From: Chthoniobacterales bacterium
GTDB lineage: Bacteria; Verrucomicrobiota; Verrucomicrobiia; Chthoniobacterales; UBA10450
Length of the DNA stretch: 55,274 nucleotides
Direction: 5' to 3'
Assembly (NCBI GenBank): GCA_013815325.1
Contig: JACDGM010000011.1
Span: 1-55,274 of the forward strand
Each line of letters starts with the position of its first letter. Positions within the stretch are counted from its first letter, which is position 1. Positions 10,442-45,031 of this stretch are shown here, piece after piece. The notes under the pieces were generated by a model, which searched no databases, was not told the origin of the DNA, and saw only the letters and a list, made by a program, of their open reading frames with translations. Position numbers and translations under genes: made by a program.

Positions 10442-10489
10442 ATTTATCGGTTAGAAGGGAGTGAACAGTAATTCGCCGCGCGTGCGGAT

Positions 10490-10584: not shown

Positions 10585-10626
10585 AGAAAAAAATTGCTCG
10601 TCAGTTAAGATCGTCGGCTACCGCTT

Positions 10627-12623: not shown

Positions 12624-12626
12624 GGG

Positions 12627-14528: not shown

Positions 14529-14530
14529 GC

Positions 14531-18598: not shown

Positions 18599-18785
18599 CG
18601 GACGATATGTATCATGTCGTCTGAAACTTGTAGCTATAGCCGTATTGCACCACGACTTTCCACTTCAATGGTGCGCTACTTTCTCTTGTGTTCAAAGCCC
18701 TGGCGTGCAATATCGTCCCGCCGGCATCCGGAGGTTCAGGCATGATCGCTTTTGCGAAAATCGAAGAACCCTCGATGAGGTTCCG

Positions 18786-19610: not shown

Positions 19611-19685
19611 AGAAATTCGGACCAATTTTGGCCAAAAACCGCCAATCTCAGTGGACCTTAGGCGTACCGCACTCTAACGTCCTCC

Positions 19686-21542: not shown

Positions 21543-21635
21543 CGTATACCAGAAGCAGCCCTCGTACCAAAAAACAAGTGATGATTGTCCCGCGCCGCGC
21601 ATTATTCGGGATTGAACCTCCTCCAAGCCCGTGCG

Positions 21636-24705: not shown

Positions 24706-24754
24706 TTGCGCAGGTTTCCAGCTTCTAAGCGGTCGTCAATCGAACCGCAATTGC

Positions 24755-27073: not shown

Positions 27074-27235
27074 AGATCGTTAAGAGGGCTGCCCGGGCAC
27101 ACCGAACGCCGCGAAAGAGCTATGTAGAGGATGTGGCCGCCGCTTCGCCGGCTACAGGTCCTGTCAGGCGGAGAGGCATCCGTCGGTCACACATAAGCAG
27201 GGCGAAAAGCTGCGTGCCAGTAGTCATCCGCCTTA

Positions 27236-29524
27236 TTAGATCTCGTTGTCGAGCGACTTGGGAATATAGGAGCGAGTCCTATTGAGGACGACTGAGACGT
27301 TGTTCCGTTCGCTCATCAATTTGGCATAGCCGCGCTTGACGACCTCGCGGCTGCTCTTTTCGGCTTCGACCACCAACAGGAGCTTATCCATAAACGCTGC
27401 CATCCCCCAGCTCTGACTGGTGGAAGTGAGCGGAGGCATATCGAAGATGATATAATCGAAGTCACTCGCCTTGAGATTGGGCATAAGGTCAAAGAACTTC
27501 TTTAAGCCTAATTGCGCCAAGCCGCCTTGACCGTTTCCGACGCTGGCGAGATAAAGGTTCTCGGCGACAGGATCAATCGGATTGGGCGGCTGAAGCGCGG
27601 CGGTAAGCGAGTAGGCGGGCTTGCCTTTGAAGAATGGATGCACATCCCCCGGCCCGAGGTTGACATCGACGAGAAGGACCTTGCCCTCATCAGTTTCCGA
27701 AAGTGCGGCCGCCAGACCAGCGGCGAGAGTCGAGGTGCCCGCGCCCTTCGAGAAGCTGGTCACGCCTACGAGCTTCGGCTTGTGCGTCATGTGGTTGAGC
27801 TCAAAGTAAAGGCCAATGCGGTCTCGAATGGACTCGGCGTACCTCCGGATGAAGTGACCGGCGTCCCAAGGCGCAATGGTTCCCCGCTGCGAACGCACGA
27901 CGAGGCTGCCGTTATCCGATCCATTAGTCTTGGGCAGCACAAGATGACCATTCGACGAAGCATCGGGAATCGAAAGCAGAAGCGAAGTATGCAACTGCGC
28001 CTCAAGCTGGCTCGGTCTCTTGACTGTGTGGCTAAGAACCAAGTCACGCAAGAGAGCCAGGGCGAGGCCAAGCCCCAAACCGCCAACCGCAAGACCAAGG
28101 GTTAACTTATCCCGAAAGGTAGTGACCATTGCCGGCGGTGTAGGTCTTTGCACCGCGCTGATATTCGGAATCTTCGAGGGATCCAAGGCCTCATCGACAC
28201 GCGCTTTTTCCAAGGTATTCTCGAAATACTTATAGTTAGTTTCTTCCAGCTCCTTCTTGCGCTCGAGGTCCCCAATCTCCGGAGAAAGATCGGAAAGTTG
28301 GCCCATCCGGCCGCGCGTCTCCTGCACACGGCTTCTTAGAGCCTCCGTCTTCGCCTCCATCCCAGCGAGACGGGCCGATTCAGTCACTACCTCTGCCCCG
28401 CCCTCAGATCCCTTGCTGGCGGCGCGGGCCGGCAGATCAGGATATTTCTTCTCGAGCGACTCTTTGTCGTTTTGTAAATCCCGAATTTGCGTTTGAGTTA
28501 CTTGCACCATCACGCTCCCGGGCGTGTATTTGGTGAGAAGTTCGCCTTTCGACTTTTCCAACTGGGCTAAGCGGGCCACGAGGGCTTGATACTGTTGCAT
28601 AGTTCGCTCGGAGGGCTGCTCTTTAGCTGAAGCCGCTGGAGATGGCCCTTGCACGCCACCAGCGCTCGTAGTGTTTGAACCGGCACCGACACTGGCGGGA
28701 GAAGAGTCGGCCGACGGAAGAGGGAGGTGCATTTCTTTGACCCGCGCCCGCTGTTCCGCCAGATCGGCTTCAGCTGCATGCAACTGGTCTTCGGTCTTGG
28801 CGAGTTCGGCACTGAGCGTGGTGGTCCCGTCGGTCAGCGAAACTATTCCAACCTTTGCCCGAAGATTTTTCAACGCGTCTTCAGTCTGGCTCAAACGCGC
28901 CCGCACCTGATCGGTTTGTTGGGTGACAAAGTCGAATGCGCCTGCCGAACGATGCACTTCAAGATGTTTGACGAAGTAACGATTGAGCAGTTCGTTCAAA
29001 ACAAGGGGCGCCAATTCCGGATCCTTACTTTGATAAGTCACAAGGATGATGTTGCTCCCTTTCGTCGCTGTCGCCACCAATCCTGCTGAGACCGTCGCAG
29101 CCGCGGCCTCTTTCGAAGGCGCGGTCGCCGATCTGGGAAGGAGGCGTTTCGGTCCAAGTGCCTCGGCCACCTGAACCGCGAGATCCCAGCTGGTCAGAAT
29201 TGCAATTTCGGAGCCGATGATAGAGTCAGTATTTTTTGAGTTCGCAGTCGAATTGGTCGAGCCATCGATAGAATCGACCGAGCTGCGGTCAAGAACGTAG
29301 CGGACCAGCAGTCTCGCGCTGGATTCGTAATGCGGGGGAGAGAGAAAGTAGGCGGCGGCAGCGGCGATTAAACCCAGAAGGCTGAAGATGAGAATCATCT
29401 TCTTGTGCCGGAAGAGGGCGAAGAGAATATCGTTGAGACCCAAGCCAGGCGGCGGAGAAGGAGCCAGCGCCGGTCGCGGCGGAGCTTGTTGCCAGAGTGG
29501 CGCTGGCGTGATCGTGTGTTCCAT
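27236..29524 (-). CDS. Wzc/GumC-like chain-length protein with degenerate kinase domain
   Basis: Protein of 762 aa. The Wzz domain has a first transmembrane helix at about 42-61 and the second at about 474-493, with a long coiled-coil periplasmic region between (about 200-460). The cytoplasmic part resembles a bacterial tyrosine kinase/ParA ATPase, but the P-loop reads SKGAGTST (592-599): the Walker-A lysine expected before S/T is Thr. Walker A' is LLVDVN (617-622), the later Asp motif YIIFDMPPL. The usual Tyr-rich C-terminal tail is missing (it ends SYIPKSLDNEI). It probably controls chain length and export without normal autophosphorylation. Confidence 0.82.
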   Translation of the reverse strand: MEHTITPAPLWQQAPPRPALAPSPPPGLGLNDILFALFRHKKMILIFSLLGLIAAAAAYFLSPPHYESSARLLVRYVLDRSSVDSIDGSTNSTANSKNTDSIIGSEIAILTSWDLAVQVAEALGPKRLLPRSATAPSKEAAAATVSAGLVATATKGSNIILVTYQSKDPELAPLVLNELLNRYFVKHLEVHRSAGAFDFVTQQTDQVRARLSQTEDALKNLRAKVGIVSLTDGTTTLSAELAKTEDQLHAAEADLAEQRARVKEMHLPLPSADSSPASVGAGSNTTSAGGVQGPSPAASAKEQPSERTMQQYQALVARLAQLEKSKGELLTKYTPGSVMVQVTQTQIRDLQNDKESLEKKYPDLPARAASKGSEGGAEVVTESARLAGMEAKTEALRSRVQETRGRMGQLSDLSPEIGDLERKKELEETNYKYFENTLEKARVDEALDPSKIPNISAVQRPTPPAMVTTFRDKLTLGLAVGGLGLGLALALLRDLVLSHTVKRPSQLEAQLHTSLLLSIPDASSNGHLVLPKTNGSDNGSLVVRSQRGTIAPWDAGHFIRRYAESIRDRIGLYFELNHMTHKPKLVGVTSFSKGAGTSTLAAGLAAALSETDEGKVLLVDVNLGPGDVHPFFKGKPAYSLTAALQPPNPIDPVAENLYLASVGNGQGGLAQLGLKKFFDLMPNLKASDFDYIIFDMPPLTSTSQSWGMAAFMDKLLLVVEAEKSSREVVKRGYAKLMSERNNVSVVLNRTRSYIPKSLDNEI

Positions 29525-29525
29525 A

Positions 29526-30641
29526 TTAGTCGAGATGCGGGTAGAGCAGGGTACCAGCGAGCCGGTTCAACGCTGGAGGCATGTTAGCGAAAAGCATATT
29601 GTGCGCCCCCCGCAAACGATCTTTCGTCGCGGCCCACTGCCCGGAGGCGGTGTTCCATCTGACGTATCTTATCACCTCTTCGGCAGATCCCCAGCCTAAT
29701 TTAAACCTCCGCAAACCTTCGTCAGCGAGCGACGTGCGTCCGAAGTGCAAAGACTCGCAAGCGCCGCGCGCGAGGAAGCGGATCGCCTCCCACATGACAA
29801 GGTTGTTGGCCCGGAGCTCGTGCGCGGCTGGGTCTGACGCTCCGTACTTGTAAAGCGCCATGCGACCGAATCGAAAAAAAATCGCGGCGGCGACACATCG
29901 CTTTTCGAGAGTTGCCTGAACGACAAAACCAATTCCCGTGCGAATGGCCTCGTCGTAAAGATTGCGAAAAAAAGAGAACGGCTGTGGCGGGAGACCATGC
30001 TGCCGACGAGTGTGCACATGCAGGCGGTAAAAATCGCGGACTGATTGCATACTCTGAGAGACCTGCACGCTCAGCTTGCTCTTTTCCGCCTTTCGGATCG
30101 CCCGCCGCACCGGACTCGAGAAGCCCGCGAATAGGGCGTCGGGGTCTTGCATCAATTTCAAGCTATGGCTGAGATATTGGATGGCTGGATCGATCACCAT
30201 GTCGAGAGACCGTGGGTCCCGGAGCTCGAAATGTTTCCAGGCATGTTCCGAAGCCAAGGCCGATAGTATGGAAAGGACATAGCTGTTATCACCCTTCTGA
30301 AAGAGAAGCGGAGAGCAGAAGTCACTAAAGGGAAGGGACACACCGCGACGACCGGTGAAAGCACTGTTTACTTCCATCATCGGGACGAGCGCTTGCAGCT
30401 CCTGAGAGCTGGAAAAGGAGAGATAGAATGGCTTATGTCCGTAAGTCCTGGTCAGTGTTCTCGCCCACGCAGAGGAGTGAAAGAAGGTCGCCTCAGGGTG
30501 GGAAAGAACCAGTTGATCCCACTCAGAATCGAGAGACGGATCGAGGAACTTGACTTCCCCATCTGCCTTGGGAGCCGCCTTCTGGGGCCCGTTCGTTTTC
30601 GTCCCCGGCATCGCGGGAGGATATTTCACAACTGCCTTCAT
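29526..30641 (-). CDS. FemAB-type protein of exosortase/PEP-CTERM-associated polysaccharide loci
   Basis: Protein of 371 aa. It has the FemAB/GNAT arrangement seen in the PEP-CTERM-associated family: WDQLVLSHPEATFFHSSAWARTL near the start, VSLPFSDFCSPLL, then RRAIRKAEKSKLSVQV, FYRLHVHTRRQHGLPPQPFSFF and FGRTSLADEGLRRFKLGWGS. Members are thought to add an amino-acid or acyl group to a glycan or lipid-linked intermediate; no substrate is established. Only 1 bp separates its stop from the Wzc-like start. It is an independent hint, beside the VPDSG tail, that the host has an exosortase system. Confidence 0.8.
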   Translation of the reverse strand: MKAVVKYPPAMPGTKTNGPQKAAPKADGEVKFLDPSLDSEWDQLVLSHPEATFFHSSAWARTLTRTYGHKPFYLSFSSSQELQALVPMMEVNSAFTGRRGVSLPFSDFCSPLLFQKGDNSYVLSILSALASEHAWKHFELRDPRSLDMVIDPAIQYLSHSLKLMQDPDALFAGFSSPVRRAIRKAEKSKLSVQVSQSMQSVRDFYRLHVHTRRQHGLPPQPFSFFRNLYDEAIRTGIGFVVQATLEKRCVAAAIFFRFGRMALYKYGASDPAAHELRANNLVMWEAIRFLARGACESLHFGRTSLADEGLRRFKLGWGSAEEVIRYVRWNTASGQWAATKDRLRGAHNMLFANMPPALNRLAGTLLYPHLD

Positions 30642-30656
30642 TGCAGTCTCGGCTTG

Positions 30657-31799
30657 TCAGATTCGTTCTGCTCTTTTAAACGTCATGCCGACGCTAAGGC
30701 ACTCCTTTACCGCATCCGTCACCCGCTGCACCTGTGCGCCCGTCAACTCCGGAAACATAGGCAGAGAGATGAATTCGTCGCAGAGTGTCTCAGAGACCGG
30801 AAACGCTCCCGCCTGATATCCCAGGTCGCGGTAAGCCTCCTGGAGGTGGACCGGAACGGGATAATGGATGCCGCACCCGATGCCTTGCTCTTCCAACATT
30901 CGCAGCATTTCATCCCGTTCCTGCACCCGGATCGGATAGAGGTGATAAATGTGTTTACCGTAGCGCGCCTCGACTGGGCTCACGATTTCTTCCACTCCCT
31001 GAAATGCTTCATCATATTGAGAAGCGTGCGCGCGGCGCCGCTGGTTGGCCTGGTCGAGACGAGGTAACTTCACCTGAAGAACTGCCGCCTGGATGCCATC
31101 CATGCGGCAATTCCAACCGACCATCGCGTGGTGATATTTTTTACTCTGACCATGGTCGCGCAGAATTCGAATAGCCTCCTGCAACTTATTGTCGTTAGTC
31201 ACGACAGCGCCCGCCTCGCCAAATGCACCGAGATTCTTTCCCGGATAGAAACTAAAACAACCGGCGTGGCCCATCGTGCCTGCCTTGCGTCCCTTGTATT
31301 CCGTTCCGTGCGCCTGGGCCGCATCTTCGATCACATAGAGGTCATGCTCGCGCGCGAAAGCCAAGATCGGATCCATGTCTGCAGCTTGCCCAAAAAGGTG
31401 GACCGGGATAATCGCCTTCGTGCTGCTCGTGCGCGCCTCCTCAAGTAGAGCAGGCGCCATCGTATAGGTGTCTTCGTCGACGTCGACGAAGACTGGCTTG
31501 GCTCCCGTGTAAGTGATCGCCTCAGCTGTAGCCATAAAGGTGTTCGGAACCGTAATGACCTCATCGCCCGGTCCGATCCCGCAGGCCAATAAGGCCAGCC
31601 AGAGTGCCTCTGTCCCGCTGCCAAGTCCTATGGCGTATCGGGAGCCGCAGAAGCGGGCGAATTCGTTTTCGAATTGGGTCACGATCGGCCCCCCGGCAAA
31701 GGCTCCGCTATCGATGACTTCGCCGATTGCCTGATCAAACTCAGCCCGCAGCGGGGCATGCTGTGCGTTAAGATCGAGAAATGGTACTTTTTCTTGCAT
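30657..31799 (-). CDS. DegT/DnrJ/EryC1/StrS-family sugar aminotransferase (WlbC/WbpE-like)
   Basis: Protein of 380 aa from ATG 31799 (MQEKVPFLDL), the usual start of the family. The PLP-binding lysine is K188 in SFYPGKNLGAFGEAG, and LGSGTEALWLAL and EDAAQAHGTEY are also diagnostic. These enzymes transfer an amino group from glutamate to a keto sugar nucleotide. With the acetyltransferase and the oxidoreductase just upstream it forms the set that makes UDP-2,3-diacetamido-2,3-dideoxy-glucuronate, where this enzyme aminates C3. It overlaps the acetyltransferase gene by 32 bp. Confidence 0.88.
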   Translation of the reverse strand: MQEKVPFLDLNAQHAPLRAEFDQAIGEVIDSGAFAGGPIVTQFENEFARFCGSRYAIGLGSGTEALWLALLACGIGPGDEVITVPNTFMATAEAITYTGAKPVFVDVDEDTYTMAPALLEEARTSSTKAIIPVHLFGQAADMDPILAFAREHDLYVIEDAAQAHGTEYKGRKAGTMGHAGCFSFYPGKNLGAFGEAGAVVTNDNKLQEAIRILRDHGQSKKYHHAMVGWNCRMDGIQAAVLQVKLPRLDQANQRRRAHASQYDEAFQGVEEIVSPVEARYGKHIYHLYPIRVQERDEMLRMLEEQGIGCGIHYPVPVHLQEAYRDLGYQAGAFPVSETLCDEFISLPMFPELTGAQVQRVTDAVKECLSVGMTFKRAERI

Positions 31800-32292
31800 A
31801 ACTGTTACCGGAACTTCGAATGATCCTTGCCGGATTGCCAGCAACGGTGGCGCGAGCTGGCACATCCTTGGTCACGACACTTCCCGCCCCGACGAGAGCG
31901 CCTTCCCCCACCGTGATCCCTCCTAAAATGGTCGCCCCTGACCCGATGGAGGCGCGGCTTTCAATCCGCGTTTTGAGGCATTCCCAGTCTGCCTCAGTCT
32001 GGATGTTTCCATCCTCCGTAGTGGCCTTGGGAAAATGGTCGTTAATGAATGTGACCCCGTGTCCCACAAAGACCTCGTCTTCGATCGTGACACCCTCGCA
32101 TATAAACGTGTGACTCGAGATCTTGCAGCGCGCGCCGATTTTCGTGCCTTTCTGGATCTCTACAAAGGTGCCGATTCGCGTCTCGTCGCCGATCTCACAG
32201 CCATAAAGATTAACAAAGCCGCGCAGGCGCACATCACGCCCCAATTTCACATCAGGCGCAATCAACTGCGGAAGCGAAACTCCTTCGTTCAT
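31768..32292 (-). CDS. Left-handed beta-helix N-acetyltransferase (WlbB/WbpD-like)
   Basis: Protein of 174 aa built of hexapeptide repeats ([LIV]-G-x4), for example IGDETRIGTFVEI, ISSHTFICEGVTIEDEVFVGHGVTFIND and GGITVGEGALVGAGSVVTKDV. The HGVTFINDHFP loop with its His is typical of the UDP-3-amino-uronate acetyltransferase group. Length matches WbpD/WlbB. It should acetylate the 3-amino group made by the aminotransferase. The ATG overlaps the oxidoreductase stop by 4 bp (ATGA). Confidence 0.85.
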   Translation of the reverse strand: MNEGVSLPQLIAPDVKLGRDVRLRGFVNLYGCEIGDETRIGTFVEIQKGTKIGARCKISSHTFICEGVTIEDEVFVGHGVTFINDHFPKATTEDGNIQTEADWECLKTRIESRASIGSGATILGGITVGEGALVGAGSVVTKDVPARATVAGNPARIIRSSGNSYARKSTISRS

Positions 32293-33383
32293 GCCGCGGC
32301 CGAGGGATTCGACAGGACAACGATCGGCGGGATGCGCCCGGATGGAGAATCGGTTGTTTTGTCCCGCGAAAATTTAACCGGTGCGCCGTTCGCTTTCAGC
32401 GAGGTAGAAGCCGCTTCGAGGATACGAACCATCTCAAGTCCCGCCTGGCCTCCGCTCGCGGGCTCAGTCCCACTTTCGATGCAGTCGAGAAAGTGTTCAC
32501 ACTCGGTTTTGAGAGGCTCTTCTTGTTTGAGATAGGGAATATAGCTATCTCCGTAATGGTAGGAGTAGTGAAACTCAGCGAACGTATCGTAGTGTGGCGG
32601 CCCCTCGACTCGAACGTCATAGACCCGGATTTTTTCGTGGGTTTGTAGGTCGTCGTAAACGATCATGCGCCGGGTGCCGACAATCGTCATCTCCCTGACC
32701 TTTCTCGGTTCGAGCCAACTGCTTTGAATCGTGGCAAAGCGCTGCTGGCTGAAAGAGAGCGACATGTTTGTTACATCCTCTATCCCCGGGGTAACATGAG
32801 CGTTACCCGAGCAGTTCACCGAGACTGGAAATTCTCCAAGAATGTTGAGGATAATCGAGATGTCATGGGGAGCGAGATCCCAAGCTACGTTGATGTCTTG
32901 TTGAAAAAGCCCCAAGTTGAGACGCCGCGAATTAATGTAGCGGATTTGGCCAATGTCGCCGGTGCGGATAAGCTGTGTGATCTTACGCACCGGCGCAGAG
33001 TAGAGGAAGGTATGGCCGATCATTAATACCAAGCCGTTACGGTCTGCGATTTCGCACAATTCCTCGCATTCCGCGGAGGAGGAGGCCATCGGCTTTTCAA
33101 TGAAGGTGTGTTTGCCAGCCAGCAGACTTGCTTTGGCCAAAGGGAAGTGGTGCTTCACCGGGGTGGCAATGACCACGGCGTCCAGTCCGGGGATCCGGAG
33201 GAATCGCGTAAAATCAGTCAGGCCCGCAACGTCTGGATATAACCCCAGAAGATGCTTCAAGCGGCCCTCATTCAGATCACACATCGCTTTAACTTTGCAA
33301 TTCGGGAGCGCTGAAAAGTTGCGAATGAGATTCGGCCCCCAGTAGCCGCAGCCGACAATGCCGAGCGAGATTGGCGCGTTCAT
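32289..33383 (-). CDS. Gfo/Idh/MocA oxidoreductase (WlbA/WbpB-like)
   Basis: Protein of 364 aa. The start is set by the ATGA overlap with the preceding sugar transferase gene (ATG 33383), giving MNAPISLGIVGCGYWGPNLIRNF with the NAD-binding GxGxxG. EKPMASSSAECEEL and the AWDLAPHDISIIL region are family-typical. WlbA/WbpB oxidises C3 of UDP-GlcNAc-uronate and passes the 3-keto product to the aminotransferase. The UDP-GlcNAc 6-dehydrogenase (WbpA) needed upstream is not in the window. It overlaps the acetyltransferase by 4 bp. Confidence 0.85.
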   Translation of the reverse strand: MNAPISLGIVGCGYWGPNLIRNFSALPNCKVKAMCDLNEGRLKHLLGLYPDVAGLTDFTRFLRIPGLDAVVIATPVKHHFPLAKASLLAGKHTFIEKPMASSSAECEELCEIADRNGLVLMIGHTFLYSAPVRKITQLIRTGDIGQIRYINSRRLNLGLFQQDINVAWDLAPHDISIILNILGEFPVSVNCSGNAHVTPGIEDVTNMSLSFSQQRFATIQSSWLEPRKVREMTIVGTRRMIVYDDLQTHEKIRVYDVRVEGPPHYDTFAEFHYSYHYGDSYIPYLKQEEPLKTECEHFLDCIESGTEPASGGQAGLEMVRILEAASTSLKANGAPVKFSRDKTTDSPSGRIPPIVVLSNPSAAA

Positions 33384-34408
33384 ATCCGCTCGCCAAGCCT
33401 CTCGAAGCTGGGGGTATGACAAGCAACGGTTTCGCCTGAAGCCTTGCCGCTCCTTGCCCGGACGGCGTCAGAAGACTCCCGAGTTTGGCGGAGAATCGCT
33501 GGAAAGGTTTTCCAAATAATTCCCAGATCGAGCGAGAGGGACCTATTCTCCACGTAGAAAATATCCATCGCGATCATCTCGCTGAATGTTGTGCTGTTCT
33601 TACCATTAACCTGCCATAAGCCGGTGAGTCCGGGCGGCGCATTCACTCGGGCGCGGTGCTCGGGCCGATAGCGCTGATATTCAACCACCGTGCAAGGTCG
33701 CGGGCCGACGAGGCTCATGTCGCCACGAAGAACGTTGAACAATTGTGGCAGCTCATCCAGGCCCGTCGCGCGAAGAAAGCGCCCGCAGGGGATTAGACGT
33801 GGGTCCGAAGCGTCCAGTTTCGTCATCGGCGAGTCCGCCATCATTAGTTGCTCGACGTATTGCTCATGCGCGTGCGTCTCAGCGTTTACATGCATGCTCC
33901 GAAACTTGAAAATCATGAATTCCTTCCCTCGGAAACCAATCCGGCGCTGCCGGTAAAACGCCGGGCCCCGAGAAGCAACTTTTATCAAACCTGTAACCAG
34001 CGCCATCAGCGGTAGCCAAATCGGGGCCGTGCAGAGCAGAATTCCGAGATCCACAACTCGCTTCGATCGAGGGAGCCGGGTCTCGAAGACCAGCATGGCT
34101 GCAGCTCCGGCACCGTTGTTCGAAGGAGTATCCGAACCGTCCGCGAAACCCGATGCGCCCGGCGTTGCTACCCCATCATTCTCGCGCTCGGCTCGGAAAT
34201 GCTTGAGGACAGCTTCTTGAAGAATAACCGGAACCTTGGTTTCAGTGATTTCTGCTACGCTGCTCGGCGCTCTTATTTCGCCTGCCGAGACGGCGTCGAA
34301 TTCGCGAGGGCGGAGTGCCAGAACCCGGAGCGCACCGCGCCATCGAGGCAAGCGACCGCCCGTGGTCGATTGCCCCGATTTGGAGGCAAGACGTGATTTC
34401 TTTATCAT
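33380..34408 (-). CDS. Polyprenyl-phosphate phosphoglycosyl transferase (initiating sugar transferase)
   Basis: Protein of 342 aa. Residues about 120-325 are a bacterial sugar transferase domain: RSKRVVDLGILLCTAPIWLPLMALV membrane segment, FYRQRRIGFRGKEFMIFKFRSM, then GLDELPQLFNVLRGDMSLVGPRP and GLTGLWQVNGKN. This is the monotopic catalytic core found in PglC and WcaJ, which moves a sugar-phosphate to undecaprenyl phosphate, the first step of repeat-unit assembly. The ~110-residue N-terminal part lacks the four helices of WcaJ and is of unknown role. It is the first gene of the 34-kb unidirectional locus. Confidence 0.88.
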   Translation of the reverse strand: MIKKSRLASKSGQSTTGGRLPRWRGALRVLALRPREFDAVSAGEIRAPSSVAEITETKVPVILQEAVLKHFRAERENDGVATPGASGFADGSDTPSNNGAGAAAMLVFETRLPRSKRVVDLGILLCTAPIWLPLMALVTGLIKVASRGPAFYRQRRIGFRGKEFMIFKFRSMHVNAETHAHEQYVEQLMMADSPMTKLDASDPRLIPCGRFLRATGLDELPQLFNVLRGDMSLVGPRPCTVVEYQRYRPEHRARVNAPPGLTGLWQVNGKNSTTFSEMIAMDIFYVENRSLSLDLGIIWKTFPAILRQTRESSDAVRARSGKASGETVACHTPSFERLGERI

Positions 34409-35099
34409 TTTTTGTTACTCGAACCAGCCTTTGTTCAGGACCGGTATAATTTCCAGATTTAATAGAAACTCTATTTCGATCTGTATTGTCAACACAATCC
34501 GAGTAGTCAGAGCCGAACGGAAGCAATCTCCGCACCGCGTGGTGCAACAACTTCTTCTCACGTCACGTGCTGTCCTCGGCGGTCGCTCTGCATGCTGGTT
34601 CTTTTAGAGGCGGGGACTGAGATTTTCATTTTATGCGCAGGGGCAGCCAGCAAGGACGAACCGAAGGGGAGTTGCGTATATACCGCATAATCGGACCTCT
34701 AACCAGCTATGGACTGGGAATTTTCGTTACACTTGTGTTACGCGTATGGCTTCACGAATGCAGCGAGCCTCATTTGACGGAGCGCACCTGACATTATTCG
34801 TTACCGAGCGGTTTGGATTTTTCCGAGAAGCCGCGCGACGCAGAGTTGGCGTCGTTAGAGCGCTGAAGGCCCCGACTTCTTGACAACGCAGCGGGATTTC
34901 CGCTCCGCTCCAATCAGCCGACTGACGACCTGCTCCAAATTTGACGCTTCAACGCGCACGAGGAGGACGCAAAGCCAGTCGCATCAGCGCCAGCATCGAC
35001 TCCCACGCCAATGAAGATGCTGCCTCTTGTTTGCCCTACCAAGAGGGCAGTCCAATCGGCCGACGGGCACGGAGGAGCCGGCCGGTGCAAATCGAAATC
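34409..35099. other. 691-bp intergenic region between the polysaccharide locus and ftsZ
   Basis: There is no convincing gene in either strand. A minus-strand TTGACA (complement of 34488-34493) lies upstream of the first polysaccharide gene and may be a -35 element, but no -10 sits at the expected 17 bp, so a promoter is only suspected. TTAGAGG (34605-34611) is matched by CCTCTAA (34696-34702). The block separates two regions that differ in base composition and in content of the GCCTAACGA motif. Confidence 0.5.
35020..35050 (-). terminator. Candidate terminator after ftsZ
   Basis: Fifty bases after the ftsZ stop the minus strand can form CTGC-C-CTCTTG with CAAGAG-GCAG (10 bp, one bulged C) around a 10-nt loop. 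Downstream bases are only mildly T-rich (CATCTTCATT). This is the first strong hairpin after the last dcw gene. Confidence 0.35.
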
Positions 35100-36572
35100 T
35101 TATTTCACCCGTACGTTCTTGCGCAAATAGGTCGGCACGTCGAGGTCCTGTCCTTCCACGATGGTCGGTTCGCTTTTTTCGAAGCGCCCCCGTGTGACCG
35201 ATTCGAACTGCATCACTTCCTGACGCGCCTGCACAAGCGGGTCCTTCCGCGCGCTCGCCGCTTTTGCCGGCGCGGGTTCAGGTGCAACCGCTGGTTCTTT
35301 TGGCAGCGGAGGTCGCTTTTCTTTGCGCACAGGCGGAGGCGGAGGGACGACCAAGATTGGGTCGGGCTCAGGTTCAGCTGTGACTTCGTCGGCCGCGCGC
35401 GCGGGGGGCGCGGCAAAATCGATTTGCGTCACATTCGCCGGCTCTGCGATCGGGCTGGAGTATTCAATCGCTGGCGGAGCGGGAAGCGGCTCCGGCGCGG
35501 GCGGAACGACGGCCTGCGGCGGTTCAACAAAAGGCGCTGCTGTCGCCGCGACTGCCCCTCGGCGTTGCCACGCCGAAACAGGCATTGGCTCCTCTCTCGA
35601 ACCAATGGAACTGATCAGCGTCACGCTCAGACGATTCCCCATTTTCCCATCAACTGCCGTGCCAAAAAGAATCTGGGTGTGATCTTCAACGTGCCGCCCG
35701 AGCTCCCGCATCACGATCTCGACTTCGGTCAGCGTCATCCCGGGCCCGCCGGAAATTTGCACGAGCACGTGCCGCGCGTCGGTCAGCATTTTGCCGCGGT
35801 CCATCAGCGGATTTTTTAGCGCGAGCGCGAGCGCCTCGTGAGCGCGGTTGTCGCTGTCCGATTCGCCGAAACCGAAGAGGCAGCGGCTGTCCTGGCTGCG
35901 CAGGGCGGAGAGCAATTCATCGAAACCGATCTGGATCAAGCCACGCCGCCTAACGACGCTGACGATCGCGCGCACGCTCTGGCTGATCGTCAGATCGGCG
36001 ACGGCAAAGGCCTGGTGAATGCCGGCCTTCGGTAAAACCATGTCGCCCATCCGATCGTTTTCGAAACAGACAACGGCATCGGCAAGTTGCTGCAGTTCGC
36101 GCAAGGCTTCCTGCGCTTGCGCGCCACGCCGTTTGCCTTCAAACGCAAACGGCAACGTGGCAAAGGCCACGACCAGCGCGCCGCTCTCCCGCGCCATCTG
36201 CACCACGCATGGCGCCGCGCCCGAGCCGGTCCCTCCGCCGAGACCGGCGCAGACGAAAACCATCCGCGCGCCCTGCAGCGTCTCGCGAATTTCGTCAGCT
36301 GATTCGTTAGCCGCATTGAAGCCCAGCTCCGGATCGCCGCCCGCGCCCAACCCCCGCGTGACGGCGCGGCCGAGCTGCACTTTTAGCGTCGCAACGGAAC
36401 TGGCGAGTGACTGCACATCAGTGTTCGCGGCGATGAGATCGACCCGCTCCAGCCCATCCAGGACGATGCGGTCGAGCGCGTTCGAGCCGGCGCCTCCCAC
36501 GCCGATAATCTTAATCGCGAGATCGTCTGCCTGTTTTTCCGGCAGACTGTAGTTGCGGCTGAGCTGGATCAT
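35100..36572 (-). CDS. ftsZ: Cell division protein FtsZ
   Basis: Protein of 490 aa, longer than the usual ~380 because of a Pro/Ala-rich linker at about residues 325-470. The GTPase core has IIGVGGAGSNALD, the tubulin signature GGGTGSG (112-118) and FAFEGKRR. The C-terminal peptide DLDVPTYLRKNVRVK matches the conserved tail that binds FtsA/ZipA-type partners. FtsZ polymerises into the division ring. Two copies of the GCCTAACGA nonamer fill the region just upstream of the ATG, where no Shine-Dalgarno is visible. It is the last gene of the dcw cluster. Confidence 0.97.
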   Translation of the reverse strand: MIQLSRNYSLPEKQADDLAIKIIGVGGAGSNALDRIVLDGLERVDLIAANTDVQSLASSVATLKVQLGRAVTRGLGAGGDPELGFNAANESADEIRETLQGARMVFVCAGLGGGTGSGAAPCVVQMARESGALVVAFATLPFAFEGKRRGAQAQEALRELQQLADAVVCFENDRMGDMVLPKAGIHQAFAVADLTISQSVRAIVSVVRRRGLIQIGFDELLSALRSQDSRCLFGFGESDSDNRAHEALALALKNPLMDRGKMLTDARHVLVQISGGPGMTLTEVEIVMRELGRHVEDHTQILFGTAVDGKMGNRLSVTLISSIGSREEPMPVSAWQRRGAVAATAAPFVEPPQAVVPPAPEPLPAPPAIEYSSPIAEPANVTQIDFAAPPARAADEVTAEPEPDPILVVPPPPPVRKEKRPPLPKEPAVAPEPAPAKAASARKDPLVQARQEVMQFESVTRGRFEKSEPTIVEGQDLDVPTYLRKNVRVK

Positions 36573-36640
36573 TTCGTTAGGCTTTCGTTAGGCAAAATGG
36601 AGGGCGAAGTCGCGGAAACACCCGCGGATGCGAAAAAAAT

Positions 36641-36760: not shown

Positions 36761-36792
36761 AGAGTTTGTTGCTGTCGATATTGTCGTTAGGC

Positions 36793-38004
36793 TCATCGCA
36801 TTCCGGAAAAGAGCTTCCCGAAAATCCCCCTGATTCCACGGCGCGGCTGGCGATCGCCCTGCACGGCCTGGGCGTACTTGATCAAGCCAATGGCGGCGGC
36901 AAACTGCGGGTTTTCAAATGCACTCGTTAGGCCAGACATGCTACGCGCATGCGTGACGCGCGCCGGAATTCCAAAAACATCTTCCGCCAGATTATCGATC
37001 CCGTTGATCTGGCTGCAGCCGCCGGTGATGAAAATACCTTCGCCGAGATAATCAAGGAACGGCTCCTCTTCGAGTTTGCGCTTCAGCAGCTCGAAGGTTT
37101 CGCGCAGCCGCATGTGGATGATGGTGTTGAGGATCTCGCGCTCCACCTCTTTCCCCGCGAAACCGGAGTCGTCTTTCAGGAGCACGGTCTCGCCCGGAAG
37201 ACAGTTGCCGAGCACGGTGCTGCCCTCCTCGATCTTGAGCTTTTCCGCGCGCGTCATCGGGATGCGCAGCCCCATCGAGATGTCGTTCGTGATGTGATCG
37301 CCGCCAACCGCGAAGACGCCGCTCTGCTTCACTGCGCCATCGACGTAGAGCACGTAATCGGTCGTGCCGCCGCCGATGTCGATGACGAGCGCGCCGAGGC
37401 TTTTCTGATTCGGGGTGAGCACGACCTGCGCAGAAGCGAAGGCGGTGAAGACCACATCCTCGACATCGAGCGGCAGCTCTTTGACGCAGCGGATCGTGTT
37501 CTGGATGCGCGTGCGCACCCCGTGAATAATGTGAAAATCGGCCTCCAATTTTTGGCCTAACATTCCCGCAGGATTGAGGACGCCGTTCTGCCCATCGACG
37601 TGATAATGCTGGATGATCGAGTGGAGAAAAGCGTTCTGCGTCGGGATGCTGACCTCGCGCGCGTTGATTTTTACATCCTCGATATCCTGCTCATCGATCT
37701 CATCGCGCTCATCGGGAAGCGCGACGCAACCGCGGTTATTGAAGCTCTGAACGTGCGCCCCGGTGATGCCGATATAGACGCTCCGAATCATGATGTCGCT
37801 TTTCTCTTCGGCATCGACGACCGCTTCGTGCACGCATTTCATCGCCGTCTCAAAATCGACAATCTCGCCTTTGCGCACGCCGCGTGAGGGCGCCTGGCCG
37901 ACGCCCAGGATCTTGATCGTGCCATCGGGCCGGCTCTCACCGACGACGACGCAGATCTTCGAAGTGCCAATTTCCAGACCGACCATCAAATTGCTGCTAG
38001 CCAT
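36793..38004 (-). CDS. ftsA: Cell division protein FtsA
   Basis: Protein of 403 aa, normal length. Actin-fold ATPase with GLEIGTSKICVVVGE at the start (phosphate 1), IDIGGGTTDYVLY near residue 205 (phosphate 2) and GIFITGGCSQINGI (adenosine). The C-terminal amphipathic helix GIRGIFGKLFSGMR is the membrane-targeting sequence. FtsA tethers FtsZ filaments to the membrane. It overlaps ftsQ by 8 bp. A nonamer copy (36784-36792) follows directly after its stop codon. Confidence 0.96.
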   Translation of the reverse strand: MASSNLMVGLEIGTSKICVVVGESRPDGTIKILGVGQAPSRGVRKGEIVDFETAMKCVHEAVVDAEEKSDIMIRSVYIGITGAHVQSFNNRGCVALPDERDEIDEQDIEDVKINAREVSIPTQNAFLHSIIQHYHVDGQNGVLNPAGMLGQKLEADFHIIHGVRTRIQNTIRCVKELPLDVEDVVFTAFASAQVVLTPNQKSLGALVIDIGGGTTDYVLYVDGAVKQSGVFAVGGDHITNDISMGLRIPMTRAEKLKIEEGSTVLGNCLPGETVLLKDDSGFAGKEVEREILNTIIHMRLRETFELLKRKLEEEPFLDYLGEGIFITGGCSQINGIDNLAEDVFGIPARVTHARSMSGLTSAFENPQFAAAIGLIKYAQAVQGDRQPRRGIRGIFGKLFSGMR

Positions 38005-39199
38005 TACCGCCGCTTCCTTGGTTAAAACGCTGAAGTGGAATCGCCTTCCGCACCGGCAAGGGCGCGGCAGAACGAGAGTGAAATTTGTGCACGCCGGGGC
38101 TCACGAGGGTGGCTTTCGGAATCGTCCGCTCGAGCGCCTTCGCACGCCGAACCTCCCGCTGGTGCGCCACGGCCGGCGCTGCTTTCGGCGTCTCGGCAGC
38201 CGGCGTTTCTTTCGCTTTAGGCTCGGATTTTTCCGCCGCGACCGACTCGGGCACATCGCCATCGTCCTGCAGCTCAGAAATAATTTCGGCCGCGGGCTTG
38301 GTGAAGGTCACCGGAATGTTGCGCGCGACGAGGAGATTCACGGTGCTGATCTGGCGATGGGAGTCGTCGGCATAAACGAGCAACTGCTCGAGCCGCTGCA
38401 TCTGTTGCTCCAGATCGTCGAAGGCAAACATCACTTCCGTGTGATTCTTGTCCGCCACGAGCAGGCAATACCCTTTCGAAACATCGACATCGCGAATCTG
38501 AAAACGCGTCTGCATAAAACTCGTCGTCGTTAGGCGGAGAAGCGCGAGTGCGGTCTTCGCTTCGAGCGAGGTCACCATTTTCCCCGGCACGAGCGCCTCG
38601 CTCGAACAGCCCGCGATCAAGGGCAGCGCCAGGTAGTCGGGCAGCAATTTTTTCTCCTTCATGAGGATGCCGCGCGCGTCCACGAGAAAGGCGGCATCGG
38701 AAGCGAAGGGATCGGCCACCGCTTTTTCGCTCGTGATCCAGGCGATCGGTTTGCGCTCTGTGATGTGGATGTCGATCTCGTTAGGCATGCGCCTTTCCAC
38801 CTGCACCTCATCCACCTGCGGAAGCTGCTGCAGCCGGTCGTGGACCTGCGCGAGGTTTATCGAAAAAATGTTCAGTCCTTCGGCAAGCTCGGCCGTGCGC
38901 AAGACCTGCTCGCGCGTCAGCGTCCCATCAGTCTGTACCGCGAGGGTGCTCAAGCCATAATCAAGATTCTCGAAAAAGAAGCGGTTCAACCCTTCGCGGA
39001 TCCCGAAATAAAGACCGGCGCAAATGGCCACGCCGAGGACGACCTTGGAAATGAGGACGAGGACGCGGCGGTTGCGATGATGCGACGCGCGCCGGGAGCG
39101 CACCCGCACGTCGAGTAGATGCTGCTGCCGGCGCTGACGCGAACTGGAAAGCCTTTGATTGCGCGGACGCGGCTGATCCTTTTCCTTGGTCGCGCTCAT
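37997..39199 (-). CDS. ftsQ: Cell division protein FtsQ
   Basis: Protein of 400 aa from ATG 39199, fixed by the ATGA overlap with ddl; the longer frame to 39247 is not needed. It has a basic cytoplasmic N-terminus, a transmembrane helix at about 46-67, then a POTRA domain (LSTLAVQTDGTLTREQVLRTAELAEGLNIF) and the FtsQ beta domain (VERRMPNEIDIHITERKPIAWI). The C-terminal ~90 residues are an Ala/Pro/Lys-rich tail, longer than in E. coli FtsQ (276 aa). It links cytoplasmic ring and septal synthases. Confidence 0.88.
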   Translation of the reverse strand: MSATKEKDQPRPRNQRLSSSRQRRQQHLLDVRVRSRRASHHRNRRVLVLISKVVLGVAICAGLYFGIREGLNRFFFENLDYGLSTLAVQTDGTLTREQVLRTAELAEGLNIFSINLAQVHDRLQQLPQVDEVQVERRMPNEIDIHITERKPIAWITSEKAVADPFASDAAFLVDARGILMKEKKLLPDYLALPLIAGCSSEALVPGKMVTSLEAKTALALLRLTTTSFMQTRFQIRDVDVSKGYCLLVADKNHTEVMFAFDDLEQQMQRLEQLLVYADDSHRQISTVNLLVARNIPVTFTKPAAEIISELQDDGDVPESVAAEKSEPKAKETPAAETPKAAPAVAHQREVRRAKALERTIPKATLVSPGVHKFHSRSAAPLPVRKAIPLQRFNQGSGGNG

Positions 39200-40122
39200 T
39201 TTTTTTCGGGTCGCGCCGCGAGCGAGAGCTCGATGATGCGCGCACAAAGTTGCGGATAGGAAATGCCTGCGACGGCCGCCGCGTCGGGCAGCAGACTGGT
39301 CTCGGTCATGCCGGGGATGGTGTTGAGCTCGAGAACGAACGGCTCGTCCGCGGGCGAAAGCATCACGTCGACCCGGGAATAAACCTGGAGGCCGAGGGCG
39401 CGATTGGCGCGCAAGGCGAGCTCTTGAATTGTGCTCGTTAGGGCAGGAGAGATGGCGGCGGGGCAGACATGCTGCGCGCCGCCGCCGCCCTGCGGATTGA
39501 GAAACGGATACTTGTCGTTGAAATCGTAAAATCCGCTCTTCGGAATGATCTCGAGAATAGGCAGGGCAAGGTCGCCCAGGACGCCGATGGTGAGCTCGCG
39601 ACCGGCGATGAACTGCTCGATCAATAATTCACGGTCGTGCTGGGCCGCCGCGGCGAGCGCGCCGGCCAGCTCCGCCTTCTCCCTAACGATTTGAATCCCA
39701 ACGGTCGAACCGTCCCGGGGCGGTTTTACAACCAAAGGCAAAGCCATCGATGGCCGCGCTCCAGCCCGAATCACTTCGGACTCCGGAGTGGAAACGCCGT
39801 ATTCGCGAAATTTCTGCTTGGACAGGATCTTGTCGAAGGCAAGTCGGCTCTCTTTGATACCGTCGCCAGTGTAAGCGACGCCACGATTTTCGAGAATTTG
39901 CTGGAGTTGGCCGTCCTCGCCGAAGGTTCCGTGAATCGCGAGAAACGCGATGTCGACCTGGTCGGGCAGATCTAAGTCCGGTCCCCGCACATCTACTTCC
40001 GTGACTTCCGCGCCTAACGACACCAAAGCCTTTGCCACGCCGGCGCCGGTCGCGAGCGAAACTTTCCTCTCCGAACCCGGCCCCCCCATGAGCACCACAA
40101 TATATTTCCCACGGAGGTTCAT
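39196..40122 (-). CDS. ddl: D-alanine--D-alanine ligase
   Basis: Protein of 308 aa, family-typical. ATP-grasp enzyme with the N-terminal GGPGSERKVSLATG, YTGDGIKESRLAFDKILSK, VVKPPRDGSTVGIQIV and the C-terminal metal site VLELNTIPGMTETSLLP. It joins two D-Ala for use by MurF. A Shine-Dalgarno-like GGAGG lies about 10 bases upstream of ATG 40122. The stop overlaps ftsQ (ATGA). Confidence 0.96.
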   Translation of the reverse strand: MNLRGKYIVVLMGGPGSERKVSLATGAGVAKALVSLGAEVTEVDVRGPDLDLPDQVDIAFLAIHGTFGEDGQLQQILENRGVAYTGDGIKESRLAFDKILSKQKFREYGVSTPESEVIRAGARPSMALPLVVKPPRDGSTVGIQIVREKAELAGALAAAAQHDRELLIEQFIAGRELTIGVLGDLALPILEIIPKSGFYDFNDKYPFLNPQGGGGAQHVCPAAISPALTSTIQELALRANRALGLQVYSRVDVMLSPADEPFVLELNTIPGMTETSLLPDAAAVAGISYPQLCARIIELSLAARPEKK

Positions 40123-40279: not shown

Positions 40280-42583
40280 TCAGCACGCTTCCTCCCCCAC
40301 GATTTGCACTTCGGTTTCCAACTCGATTCCGCGCTTTTCACGCGCCGTGGTCTTGATTCTGTCGATCAACTCCAGCATCTCGACCGCCGTCGCGCCCCCA
40401 TCATTCACGATAAAATTTCCATGCACCTTCGAGACCCGCGCGTCCCCCACCCGCGCATCTTTTAACCCCAGCTCGTCGACCAATTTTCCCGCCGGACAGG
40501 TCGCCGGATTCCTGAAAATACAGCCGGCGCTCCTCGCGCTCGGTTGCGTGCCGCGCCGTTTTTCCTGCGACTCGTCCAGCCGCCTAACGATTTCTTCAGC
40601 GCTCGATTTTTCCCCGCGAAAAACCGCCGAAACGGCAAAGTTAACATCGAGCGACGGGACGTGCCGGTAGTGGACTTCCAATTCGTTAGGCGCCTTCTCA
40701 TGCGCGACCCCATCCTCATCGAGGTAACGCACCCGCACCACTTGATCGAAAATCTGCATGCCCATGGCGCCGGCGTTCATCCGCAAGCCGCCACCCACTT
40801 CGCCGGGAATTCCTTCCATCCATTCCAAACCGCCAATCCCCGCCGCTCTTCCAGCGTAGGCGATCTGCTTCAATTTCACACCGACGCCCGCGGTCACTTC
40901 CAGGCCCGATGTTGCAATCGTTTCGAAATCGCCGCCGCTTGGATGCACAACCACGCCGCGAATGCCGCCGTCGCGCACGAGCAGATTCGAGCCGCGGCCA
41001 ATGACGAAAAGCGGCAGAGTTTCCCGCCGGCAAAACCGAATCACTTCCGCGAAGGCCGCTTCGCTCCGCGGCTCCACCCAAAATTGCGCCGGACCCCCGA
41101 CGCGCAAGGTCGTGTGTTTCGCAAGCGGCTCGGAAAGCCGTGCCTCCCCTTCCGCGCCGACAATCTCCTTCAGCCTCTCCAGGATAACCAACTCGGCCGC
41201 CAGTTTCGCCAGTTGCTCGTGAATATTGCCCGCGCCGAGACTGAGCACGAGATCGCCCTCCGCCAGAATCCGCCCGAGGTCGCCATGCAGCTGCTCGAGC
41301 CTCGGTTGGTAAGCGACGTTTTGATGTCCGTGCTGCAAAATTTCATCGACGATCGTCTGGCCACTGATTCCGGGCAGCGCCGCTTCGCTCGCCGGATAGA
41401 TGTCGGTCACGAAGATGTAATCGGTCTCGTCGAAGGCGGAGCCGAACTCACGGCGGAGGGCTTTGGTGCGGGAATAACGATGCGGCTGGAACATCGTCAG
41501 CACGCGATTGCGCCCGGCGGACCTGGCCGTCGCGAGGGTCGCGCGAATCTCGGTCGGATGATGCGCGTAATCGTCGACCAGGAGAAAACGATCACTTTGG
41601 TACTTGATCTCGAAACGCCGTCGCGCGTGCCGAAAATTGCCTAACGACTTCGCGACTTTCTCGAAAGGCACGCCCAGTTCCGTCGCCAGTGCGATGACGC
41701 CGAGCGCGTTGCTCACATTATGTTTCCCGGGGACGTTGAGCGTCGCTTCGCCCAGCTTTTCTTTGTCCCGCTCCACGCAAAAGGTCGCCGCAAAATCGTG
41801 CAGCTCGAGTCCGCTGACGCGGTAGCGCGCGCTTTCGCCGAAGCCGTAAGAGATCGCCTTCGCGCGCGCGCCGCAGATCCGGGCCGCGTGCGCGTCGTCG
41901 GCGCAATAGAAAACGGTGCCGCTAGTTTGCGCGAGCAGCTTGACAAAGACGGTCTCGATCGCGGCCAGGTCCGCGTAGAAGTCGAGATGCTCTTCCTCGA
42001 CGTTGAGGATAAGGGCGTGCTCCGGGTGGAAAAGTTGCAGGGTGCCGTCGCTCTCGTCGCCTTCCGCGACGAAATATTCGCCTAACGAGTCCCAGTGCGC
42101 GTTGCTCCCGAGGATTGGAATTTCCGCGCCGACGTAATGCGACGGATGCAGTTGCCCACCACGTAAGACGTGCGCTGCCATCGCCGCGGTCGTCGTCTTG
42201 CCGTGCATCCCTGCGATGACGATCCCGCGTTTGCCGAGCATGATCGCGGCGAGCGCTTCGGCGCGGCGAATCGCCGGGCCCCCGCGTGCCCTTGCATCAA
42301 TCAAGATCGAGTTGTCTTCCTTGATCGCCGACGAATAGATGACCAGCTCCGCGTCCGCCGCATCCTCGACGCAATGGGGTGAAAAGGCGCGGAGCCCGAG
42401 CTGTGAGAGACGTTCGGTCTCGAGGGTGCGCACTTTGTCGGAACCGCGCACGTCGTGCCCGAGCTCGAGCAGGAGGGCGGCGATCCCGCTCATCCCGCTC
42501 CCGGCGACGCCGATCAAATGGATGGCGTGCCGCTCCTGTGTGAGGAAACGCTGGAGATCGAGATCAGGCCGCGACGGCATCAT
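40280..42583 (-). CDS. murC/murB: Fused UDP-MurNAc--L-alanine ligase / UDP-enolpyruvyl-GlcNAc reductase (MurC-MurB)
   Basis: Protein of 767 aa. Residues 1 to about 465 are MurC: HLIGVAGSGMSGIAALLLELG and the ATP loop GMHGKTTT (125-132). From about residue 475 to the end it is MurB: LAKHTTLRVGGPAQFWVEP, the FAD site FVIGRGSNLLVRDGG and the catalytic region SAGCIFRNP, where a Cys replaces the usual Ser proton donor of SAGSxF; such Cys variants exist in other MurBs. MurB makes UDP-MurNAc and MurC adds L-Ala, so two consecutive steps are in one chain. The start (ATG 42583) overlaps murG by 20 bp. Confidence 0.95.
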   Translation of the reverse strand: MMPSRPDLDLQRFLTQERHAIHLIGVAGSGMSGIAALLLELGHDVRGSDKVRTLETERLSQLGLRAFSPHCVEDAADAELVIYSSAIKEDNSILIDARARGGPAIRRAEALAAIMLGKRGIVIAGMHGKTTTAAMAAHVLRGGQLHPSHYVGAEIPILGSNAHWDSLGEYFVAEGDESDGTLQLFHPEHALILNVEEEHLDFYADLAAIETVFVKLLAQTSGTVFYCADDAHAARICGARAKAISYGFGESARYRVSGLELHDFAATFCVERDKEKLGEATLNVPGKHNVSNALGVIALATELGVPFEKVAKSLGNFRHARRRFEIKYQSDRFLLVDDYAHHPTEIRATLATARSAGRNRVLTMFQPHRYSRTKALRREFGSAFDETDYIFVTDIYPASEAALPGISGQTIVDEILQHGHQNVAYQPRLEQLHGDLGRILAEGDLVLSLGAGNIHEQLAKLAAELVILERLKEIVGAEGEARLSEPLAKHTTLRVGGPAQFWVEPRSEAAFAEVIRFCRRETLPLFVIGRGSNLLVRDGGIRGVVVHPSGGDFETIATSGLEVTAGVGVKLKQIAYAGRAAGIGGLEWMEGIPGEVGGGLRMNAGAMGMQIFDQVVRVRYLDEDGVAHEKAPNELEVHYRHVPSLDVNFAVSAVFRGEKSSAEEIVRRLDESQEKRRGTQPSARSAGCIFRNPATCPAGKLVDELGLKDARVGDARVSKVHGNFIVNDGGATAVEMLELIDRIKTTAREKRGIELETEVQIVGEEAC

Positions 42584-43667
42584 GCGGATGACTGTACTTT
42601 TCCATTGTATCCACGATTAAACTGGCCGCGTTTTTGGGCGCGAGCGTCGCGGCCGCCGCCGACATTTTGCGCAGCGTCGCCGGATCACTCAAAAGCTGTT
42701 GAATTTTTTTCCCAAGCAGATCGTCGGCCAGCTCGGCTTCCTTGAGCAGGACCGCGGCATTCGCCCTAACGAATATCTCGGCGTTGCGCGTCTGGTGATC
42801 GTCGGCCGCGTAGGGATACGGGACGAGCAGCGAGGGCAATGCGAACGCGGCCAACTCGGCCAGACTCGCCGCGCCGGAGCGCGTGATCGCGAAATCCGCT
42901 GCGCTGTAAACTTCCTCCATCCGATGATGAAAGGCGGCGACGTGCGCGGGGGTTTTCTCGCGCCGGTAATTATCCTCAAGCAAGCGCGCGTCGCGGTTAC
43001 CGGTAAGGTGAATCACCTGCAAGGCTACGCCTTGCAGTGCGGGCAGCGCCTTGATCATCGCCTGATTAATCCCGCTCGCGCCCTGGCTCCCGCCCATCAC
43101 GAGGAGCGTCGGCACGTCCGGACGCAAACCCAGCCTAACGAGCGCCTCGGCGCGATCCATCCGGCGCAGAGTGGAGCGGATCGGCGTGCCCGTCCACTCC
43201 GTCCGGATCTTCGGAAAAAAAGTGGCGCACTCTTTAAAGCCGAGGAGAACGGCGCGGACAAAGCGCGCGGCATGCCGGTTGGCTTTGCCGGGGTAGGCGT
43301 TCGATTCGTGAATGAAAGTCGTGCTCCCGTGCATCCGCCCGGCGAGGACCGGCGCGCTCGAGGTGAACCCTCCCATCCCGAGGATAACTTGCGGACGAAA
43401 ACTGCGGTAAATGCCGCGGCAGAGCGCGAGGCTGTCGTTGAATCGCCTAACGAACCCTAAAATGGCGGGCGAGAAAGGCGATGGGAGCGCGACGATCGGC
43501 AGTTTCTCGAAGCGAAAATCCGGGTGCCCGGTGACCGCGAGGGTGTCGATCTCTTTCTCGGAAATAAAAACGAGAACCTCATGCCCGCGATCGCGCAGCA
43601 CCTCGGCCACGGCCAGGCCTGGGAAGAGGTGTCCGCCGGTTCCGCCACATGCAATCACGACGTTCAT
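42564..43667 (-). CDS. murG: UDP-GlcNAc--undecaprenyl-PP-MurNAc-pentapeptide GlcNAc transferase (lipid II synthase)
   Basis: Protein of 367 aa from ATG 43667, supported by a good Shine-Dalgarno (GGAGG, 7-nt spacing); the open frame to 43745 runs into the repeat element. The GT28 signatures are VIACGGTGGHLFPGLAVAE near the start and LVMGGSQGASGIN, plus SGAASLAELAAFALPSLLVPYPYAADDHQ for UDP-GlcNAc. It acts on the inner face of the membrane and makes lipid II. It follows ftsW as in most dcw clusters. Confidence 0.96.
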   Translation of the reverse strand: MNVVIACGGTGGHLFPGLAVAEVLRDRGHEVLVFISEKEIDTLAVTGHPDFRFEKLPIVALPSPFSPAILGFVRRFNDSLALCRGIYRSFRPQVILGMGGFTSSAPVLAGRMHGSTTFIHESNAYPGKANRHAARFVRAVLLGFKECATFFPKIRTEWTGTPIRSTLRRMDRAEALVRLGLRPDVPTLLVMGGSQGASGINQAMIKALPALQGVALQVIHLTGNRDARLLEDNYRREKTPAHVAAFHHRMEEVYSAADFAITRSGAASLAELAAFALPSLLVPYPYAADDHQTRNAEIFVRANAAVLLKEAELADDLLGKKIQQLLSDPATLRKMSAAAATLAPKNAASLIVDTMEKYSHPHDAVAA

Positions 43668-44982: not shown

Positions 44983-45031
44983 TGGGTAGTTCGTTAGGCG
45001 ATTTCACTCCCCGAGCGGAAGCTCCTGCTTC

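Follow-up and report, generated by a model that had tools for sequence, protein, structure and literature searches.

A nonamer adjoining ftsZ is one copy of a genome-wide, uptake-sequence-like DNA word in a Chthoniobacterales-type genome

We analyzed a 55,274-nucleotide stretch of DNA (the window) from a genome, designated G000 here, that by kinship belongs to genus g1 of a Chthoniobacterales-type family (f1; Verrucomicrobiota). Pfam searches identified a minus-strand row of genes for FtsZ (FtsZ_C, 6e-20), FtsA (FtsA, 1e-34), an FtsQ-type POTRA protein, Ddl, and a MurC-MurB fusion, confirming the initial assignments of ftsZ and ftsA. The MurC and MurB domains of the fusion lie in a single 767-aa reading frame (40280-42583, minus strand). 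On the coding strand, the ftsZ leader is GCCTAACGA-AA-GCCTAACGA-A-ATG, in which the ATG occupies 36572-36570. The tandem nonamers just 5' of this start codon are plus-strand copies of TCGTTAGGC (motif A), and a further copy lies immediately past the ftsA stop; all three are located where a previous reading made from the sequence alone (the sequence-only reading) had placed them (Table 1). That reading was to be abandoned if ftsZ proved to have another start codon. However, all 27 related ftsZ loci (28 retrieved minus L036, from Tetrasphaera, which was set aside as an outlier) begin with ATGAT[CT] at the same residue, and the start at 36572 is therefore supported as secure by this comparison. 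Between ftsA and ftsZ there is also an intergenic element (36641-36760) whose ends are inverted (GTCATCCTGAG ... CTCGGGATGAC) and which resembles elements of the REP or MITE type. Similar ends were observed in the window at 40251, 43821, and 47220 and in the ftsZ leaders of L009, L011, L013, L014, L016, L017, and others, and they constitute the top k-mer of G117.

Two accounts of the ftsZ leader had been proposed in the sequence-only reading: a translational or RNA-level role for the nonamer, or an ftsZ translated without a Shine-Dalgarno (SD) sequence. The second was supported. The region from -18 to -5 is free of GGAG, GAGG, AGGA, and AAGG, and SD-like 4-mers were detected in 3 of the 27 related leaders (L026, L029, and L034). 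Exact motif A was found in four leaders (L009, L010, L011, and L013) and was absent from the other 23; AAGATCGA, the core of a second word (motif B, AAGATCGACA), occupied the same place in 7 of 27. Leaders free of the motif also lacked an SD (L014-L019, L021-L024, and others). Relatives with a normal SD and no motif had been named as evidence against the reading; instead, 24 of 27 ftsZ leaders had no SD, whether the motif was present or absent. The SD-less state of ftsZ has nothing to do with motif A.

We also quantified SD-like 4-mers genome-wide, upstream of starts called with our own simple gene caller rather than a standard one. In G000, they preceded 19.0% of called starts, compared to a background of 13.1%, a small but not nil excess (43 of 226 starts; p=0.0075). 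The corresponding values were 11.0% versus 14.2% in G146 and 13.7% versus 13.7% in G142. As a control, the same caller detected an SD at 23 of 41 E. coli K-12 starts (56%; background, 14.6%), compared to 69% with annotated starts, reflecting its poorer start placement. An SD-less ftsZ is normal in this group, and SD-like sites rise barely over background genome-wide. SD scarcity is known for some Verrucomicrobia, with Akkermansia and IMCC26134 given as cases in one account (PMC10783764).

The three copies near ftsZ and ftsA are unremarkable representatives of a word that recurs across the genome. The window contains 31 copies of motif A (0.30 expected; 0 of 100 shuffles reached that number), and the 4.15-Mb genome of G000 contains 2,754 (~660 per Mb), compared to 66 copies of the reversed control word. 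G146 carries 4,605 copies (~1,070 per Mb). Published densities of uptake signal sequences (USS) are given as 31 to 913 per Mb (PMC12616744). In a 292.5-kb sample of G000, consisting of the window and 17 further stretches with three all-N stretches left out, we counted 224 copies against 1.8 expected under a second-order Markov model, an excess of more than 100 times. The word is also sharply defined: these 224 exact copies compare to 170 over all 27 one-mismatch variants, and in G146 the counts were 142 exact and 69 one-mismatch. A search for flanking extension of the nonamer from -15 to +23 in the G000 sample returned background-like composition, with no consensus beyond the nine bases. A literature search found motif A nowhere described as an abundant word, the 20 listed of 83 papers containing its letters being unrelated by title, and returned no report of uptake sequences in Verrucomicrobia.

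The distribution of copies within the window was strongly uneven, with 29 of 31 falling within 35100-55274 and 2 in the remainder (p=4e-11). Among 10 proteins scanned in the motif-poor left part, 3 matched no family and 7 did, the families being glycosyltransferases, a Polysacc_synt flippase, Wzz, a DegT aminotransferase, and two asparagine synthases. Most of these families belong to surface-polysaccharide synthesis. The stretch, a polysaccharide cluster, is foreign-looking.

Table 1. Genes, motif A copies, and the motif-poor stretch in the window
Feature	Position	Strand	Basis
Motif-poor stretch (35.1 kb, 2 copies; other 20.2 kb, 29 copies)	1..35099		Counts and protein scan
Motif A, motif-poor left part; overlaps stop of gene ending there	4884..4892	-	Exact match
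Motif A, other copy in motif-poor left part	17436..17444	-	Exact match
ftsZ, ATG start, SD-less	35100..36572	-	Pfam, 27 related loci
Motif A inside ftsZ	35948..35956	-	Exact in 4/27 codon-mapped relatives
Motif A directly upstream of ftsZ ATG	36574..36582	+	Exact match
Motif A, tandem partner, 11-bp period	36585..36593	+	Exact in 4/5 near relatives (L009, L010, L011, L013)
Motif A directly after ftsA stop (TGA)	36784..36792	+	Exact match
ftsA	36793..38004	-	Pfam
Motif A inside ftsA	36924..36932	+	Exact in 6/24 codon-mapped relatives, L030 among them
Motif A inside ftsQ	38527..38535	+	Exact match
Motif A inside ftsQ	38778..38786	+	Exact match
Motif A inside ddl	40012..40020	-	Exact in 13/19 codon-mapped relatives, B-type included
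Motif A inside murC-murB fusion gene	40582..40590	-	Exact match
Motif A inside murC-murB fusion gene	40683..40691	+	Exact match
Motif A inside murC-murB fusion gene	41639..41647	-	Exact match
Motif A	42080..42088	-	Exact match
Motif A	43133..43141	-	Exact match
Motif A	43445..43453	-	Exact match
Motif A	44121..44129	+	Exact match
Motif A	44422..44430	-	Exact match
Motif A	44991..44999	+	Exact match
Motif A	45470..45478	+	Exact match
Motif A	45921..45929	-	Exact match
Motif A	46362..46370	-	Exact match
Motif A	48506..48514	+	Exact match
Motif A	49092..49100	-	Exact match
Motif A	50471..50479	-	Exact match
Motif A	50746..50754	+	Exact match
Motif A	51854..51862	-	Exact match
Motif A	52824..52832	-	Exact match
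Motif A	53281..53289	-	Exact match
Motif A	54300..54308	+	Exact match
Motif A	54875..54883	+	Exact match

Motif A copies are strand neutral. Neighbouring copies shared orientation in 169 of 343 pairs, as random, and copies inside G000 genes comprised 94 sense and 93 antisense. In the G000 sample, 187 of 224 copies lay inside genes, with a density of 0.75 per kb genic versus 0.63 intergenic; in G146, the respective densities were 0.99 and 1.32 per kb. Spacing was not even (coefficients of variation of 1.72 and 1.17). Because of a TAG on one of its strands and a TAA on the opposite one, motif A is barred from two of the six frames within genes, and these become usable at gene ends. The four stop-free frames were used equally inside called genes (50/44/46/47; p=0.94), and motif A consequently accounts for 13-14% of the TTA, CTA, and AGG codons present in the sampled G000 DNA. 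At gene ends, 44 copies fell in the interval from -15 to +14 around 351 stop codons (9.2 expected), a count in which some copies lie at a single site common to two called genes, and the word overlaps or supplies the stop codon at 24 listed gene ends. Enrichment in the 30 nt upstream of 351 called starts was weaker (17 copies versus 9.2 expected at uniform density; p=0.013). The copy past the ftsA stop and the pair in the ftsZ leader fit this picture of permissive sites.

Motif A is under constraint at the DNA level. Aligned motif sites were exactly kept in 177 of 247 cells, compared to 14.4% of 148,235 other 9-mer cells; these cells are sequence pairs, not independent events, drawn from five of the 27 relatives (L009-L013) compared among themselves and with the window. 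Where a motif site was absent from a near relative, the difference was mostly substitution at the same place rather than a gap.

We then surveyed 213 genomes of the order, 83 in f1 and 130 outside it. Motif A was hyperabundant in all five g1 genomes (1,410 to 4,605 copies), in G141 (2,147), and in G142 (1,802); other f1 genera carried 19 to 587 copies, and the 130 genomes outside f1 carried 0 to 30. Across 387 genomes of the phylum, none outside f1 exceeded 133 copies. Motif B, found through k-mer enrichment in G142 and G143, was hyperabundant in g2, g3, g4, g11, g12, g13, and g14, with 4,653 copies in G142, 760 in G143, 996 to 1,509 in four g13 genomes, 74 to 755 in g14, 715 in g2, 1,070 in g3, and 147 to 1,016 in g4. 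Its copy numbers were 19 to 29 in the g1 genomes and 0 to 46 in those outside f1. In none of the 130 non-f1 genomes was either motif hyperabundant. We looked for similar words in the order's other families, in samples of ~9-60 kb from each of nine genomes, an extent at which a weak word could escape, and found none. In G125 (genus g6; L080-L083), a clustered k-mer, GCCGCTACAG, was enriched, with 8 copies in 80 kb.

The two dialects follow the family tree. An FtsZ tree (27 rows) grouped the A-rich loci with the window in one supported clade (100/100) and placed the B-rich loci on the other side together with the double-motif locus L030, which has a long branch. The 13 of 19 codon-mapped relatives that keep the ddl copy of motif A (40012) exactly include the B carriers L020, L030, and L034. 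Motif A therefore probably predates the A/B split, or at least this copy does. Both motifs occur in one genome, G142, in which motif B is sharp (97 exact versus 19 one-mismatch) and motif A is blurred (35 versus 54), the commonest variant being the C-to-T form TTGTTAGGC. We infer from this profile that motif A may be decaying in G142, with motif B replacing it.

Known DNA uptake systems offer the closest comparison. USS and the DNA uptake sequences (DUS) are described as having a density of ~1 copy per kb, no orientation bias, a surplus of exact over one-mismatch copies, stability at homologous sites, variation between subclades, a preference for non-coding DNA, and somewhat even spacing (PMC1626085, Redfield et al.). 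The USS of Pasteurellaceae (Hin-USS, AAGTGCGGT; Apl-USS, ACAAGCGGT) is, like motif A, nine bases long and present roughly once per kb, with no orientation bias, an excess of exact copies, homologous-site stability, and two subclade dialects, according to the accounts in PMC1626085, PMC12616744, and PMC3630211. In contrast to this USS, motif A occurs in another phylum and has no flanking consensus, no clear non-coding preference, and no even spacing, and motifs A and B are unrelated words, not variants of one. With the DUS of Neisseriaceae (GCCGTCTGAA and dialects), motif A shares the absence of a flanking motif and usable frames that are limited by stop codons. DUS dialects are likewise reported to follow clades, with two dialects in the S. 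muelleri genome, comparable to G142 (PMC3630211, Frye et al.). Unlike DUS, motif A is not arranged in inverted, terminator-like pairs, and no counterpart of the receptor ComP was identified here. Even spacing and inverted pairs are typical properties of these systems and not their functional definition. Exact copies outnumbered one-mismatch copies in G000 and G146 but not for motif A in G142.

Competence and pilus machinery is present in these genomes. Intact ComEC was found in 5 of 5 g1 genomes and ComEC in 196 of the 213 genomes surveyed across the order; DprA and PilB/PilT-type (T2SSE) ATPases were each found in 8 of 8 genomes tested. These are necessary parts, yet their presence does not follow the motif: ComEC occurs in most motif-free genomes, and DprA and the pilus ATPases also occur in G117 and G125, so the machinery is non-discriminating. 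A search for a receptor returned 11 to 17 pilin-type genes per genome. One candidate, a short pilin of ~134 aa found in 38 of 83 f1 genomes, was rejected, since it was found in none of the 35 genomes of g14, a motif B genus, yet in 9 of 11 g5 genomes, in which neither motif is hyperabundant. In G000, two tandem short pilins (L139, 725-1132 and 1592-1999) are 94% identical, and this family has five copies in G142.

In its density, sharpness of consensus, strand neutrality, stability of sites, and dialects within the family, motif A agrees with DUS and USS, and it may best be read as a genome-wide DNA tag that works in the same way and is read by an uptake receptor. We assign this reading a probability of roughly 0.6, weighed chiefly against a word read inside the cell. 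A type IV pilus or competence receptor would bind motif A preferentially on extracellular DNA, and DNA from close kin would be taken up more readily and then recombined. Uptake bias and recombination would together create and maintain exact copies wherever protein coding permits. The copies before ftsZ and after ftsA would sit at a tolerant leader and gene end, with no part in translation start, and motif B would have the same role in sister genera, presumably having displaced motif A in some lineages. DUS and USS are defined as a class by raised DNA binding and uptake in competent cells; we accordingly describe motif A as uptake-sequence-like and do not claim membership in that class.

The intracellular alternative is a HIP1-like or nucleoid-type word, recognized by a methylase, a nucleoid-structuring protein, or a repair protein and having no uptake role. 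The HIP1 word of cyanobacteria is palindromic and, as with motif A, hyperabundant and mostly genic. The roughly equal density of motif A within and between genes and the failure of ComEC to follow the motif both favor such a word. Nevertheless, we consider it unlikely, given that motif A is non-palindromic, 9-10 bp long, nearly invariant, and without flanking consensus, that it alternates with an unrelated word among sister genera, and that the polysaccharide cluster is without it. A restriction-modification site or other self-marking methylation site is improbable: self tags can be methylated, but restriction sites are usually avoided in genomes, and a non-palindromic 9-mer at more than 100 times expectation does not resemble them. 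A Chi- or KOPS-like polar signal, acting in recombination or chromosome segregation, would likewise be short, abundant, and genome-wide, but a 75% strand bias would place 62.5% of neighbours in the same orientation (p=4e-7 against); the random orientation observed speaks against polarity and leaves this reading very improbable. Scarcely credible is an RNA or translational element standing in for the ftsZ SD, the part of the sequence-only reading that did not hold. In the window, L010, and L013, two copies adjoin the start codon, and there is mild enrichment before starts, but this role is disfavored by the equality of sense and antisense copies, the location of most copies in genes, and the relatives whose ftsZ lacks motif and SD alike. 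Least credible of all are integron attC-type core sites (GCCTAAC/GTTAGGC), which we take the inner seven bases of motif A to resemble: attC sites form arrays of paired inverted repeats, and they are disfavored by mostly single, in-gene copies with randomly oriented neighbours (112 same, 48 and 48 opposite). Terminator pairs were likewise rejected, as inverted pairs were not in excess.

We give about even odds to the broader proposal that f1, an uncultivated family, has its own uptake-sequence system based on two unrelated tags, the third to originate independently and lying outside Proteobacteria, with G142 in mid-switch between the tags. A 2025 paper describes self-specific uptake tags as reported only from two proteobacterial families, Neisseriaceae and Pasteurellaceae (PMC12616744). 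If the proposal is true, tagged, kin-biased DNA exchange arose again, in soil Verrucomicrobiota known mostly from metagenomes, and the presence of both tags within one genome would provide a natural case for studying dialect replacement. Short words at leaders and gene ends in these genomes should then not be taken as regulatory sites. Motif B also forms direct doublets with a 15-bp period in G142, four in 60 kb (L070, 10839 and 16389; L071, 14450 and 19945). At L030, a motif B doublet adjoins the ftsZ start, and the last A of the motif is the A of the ATG.
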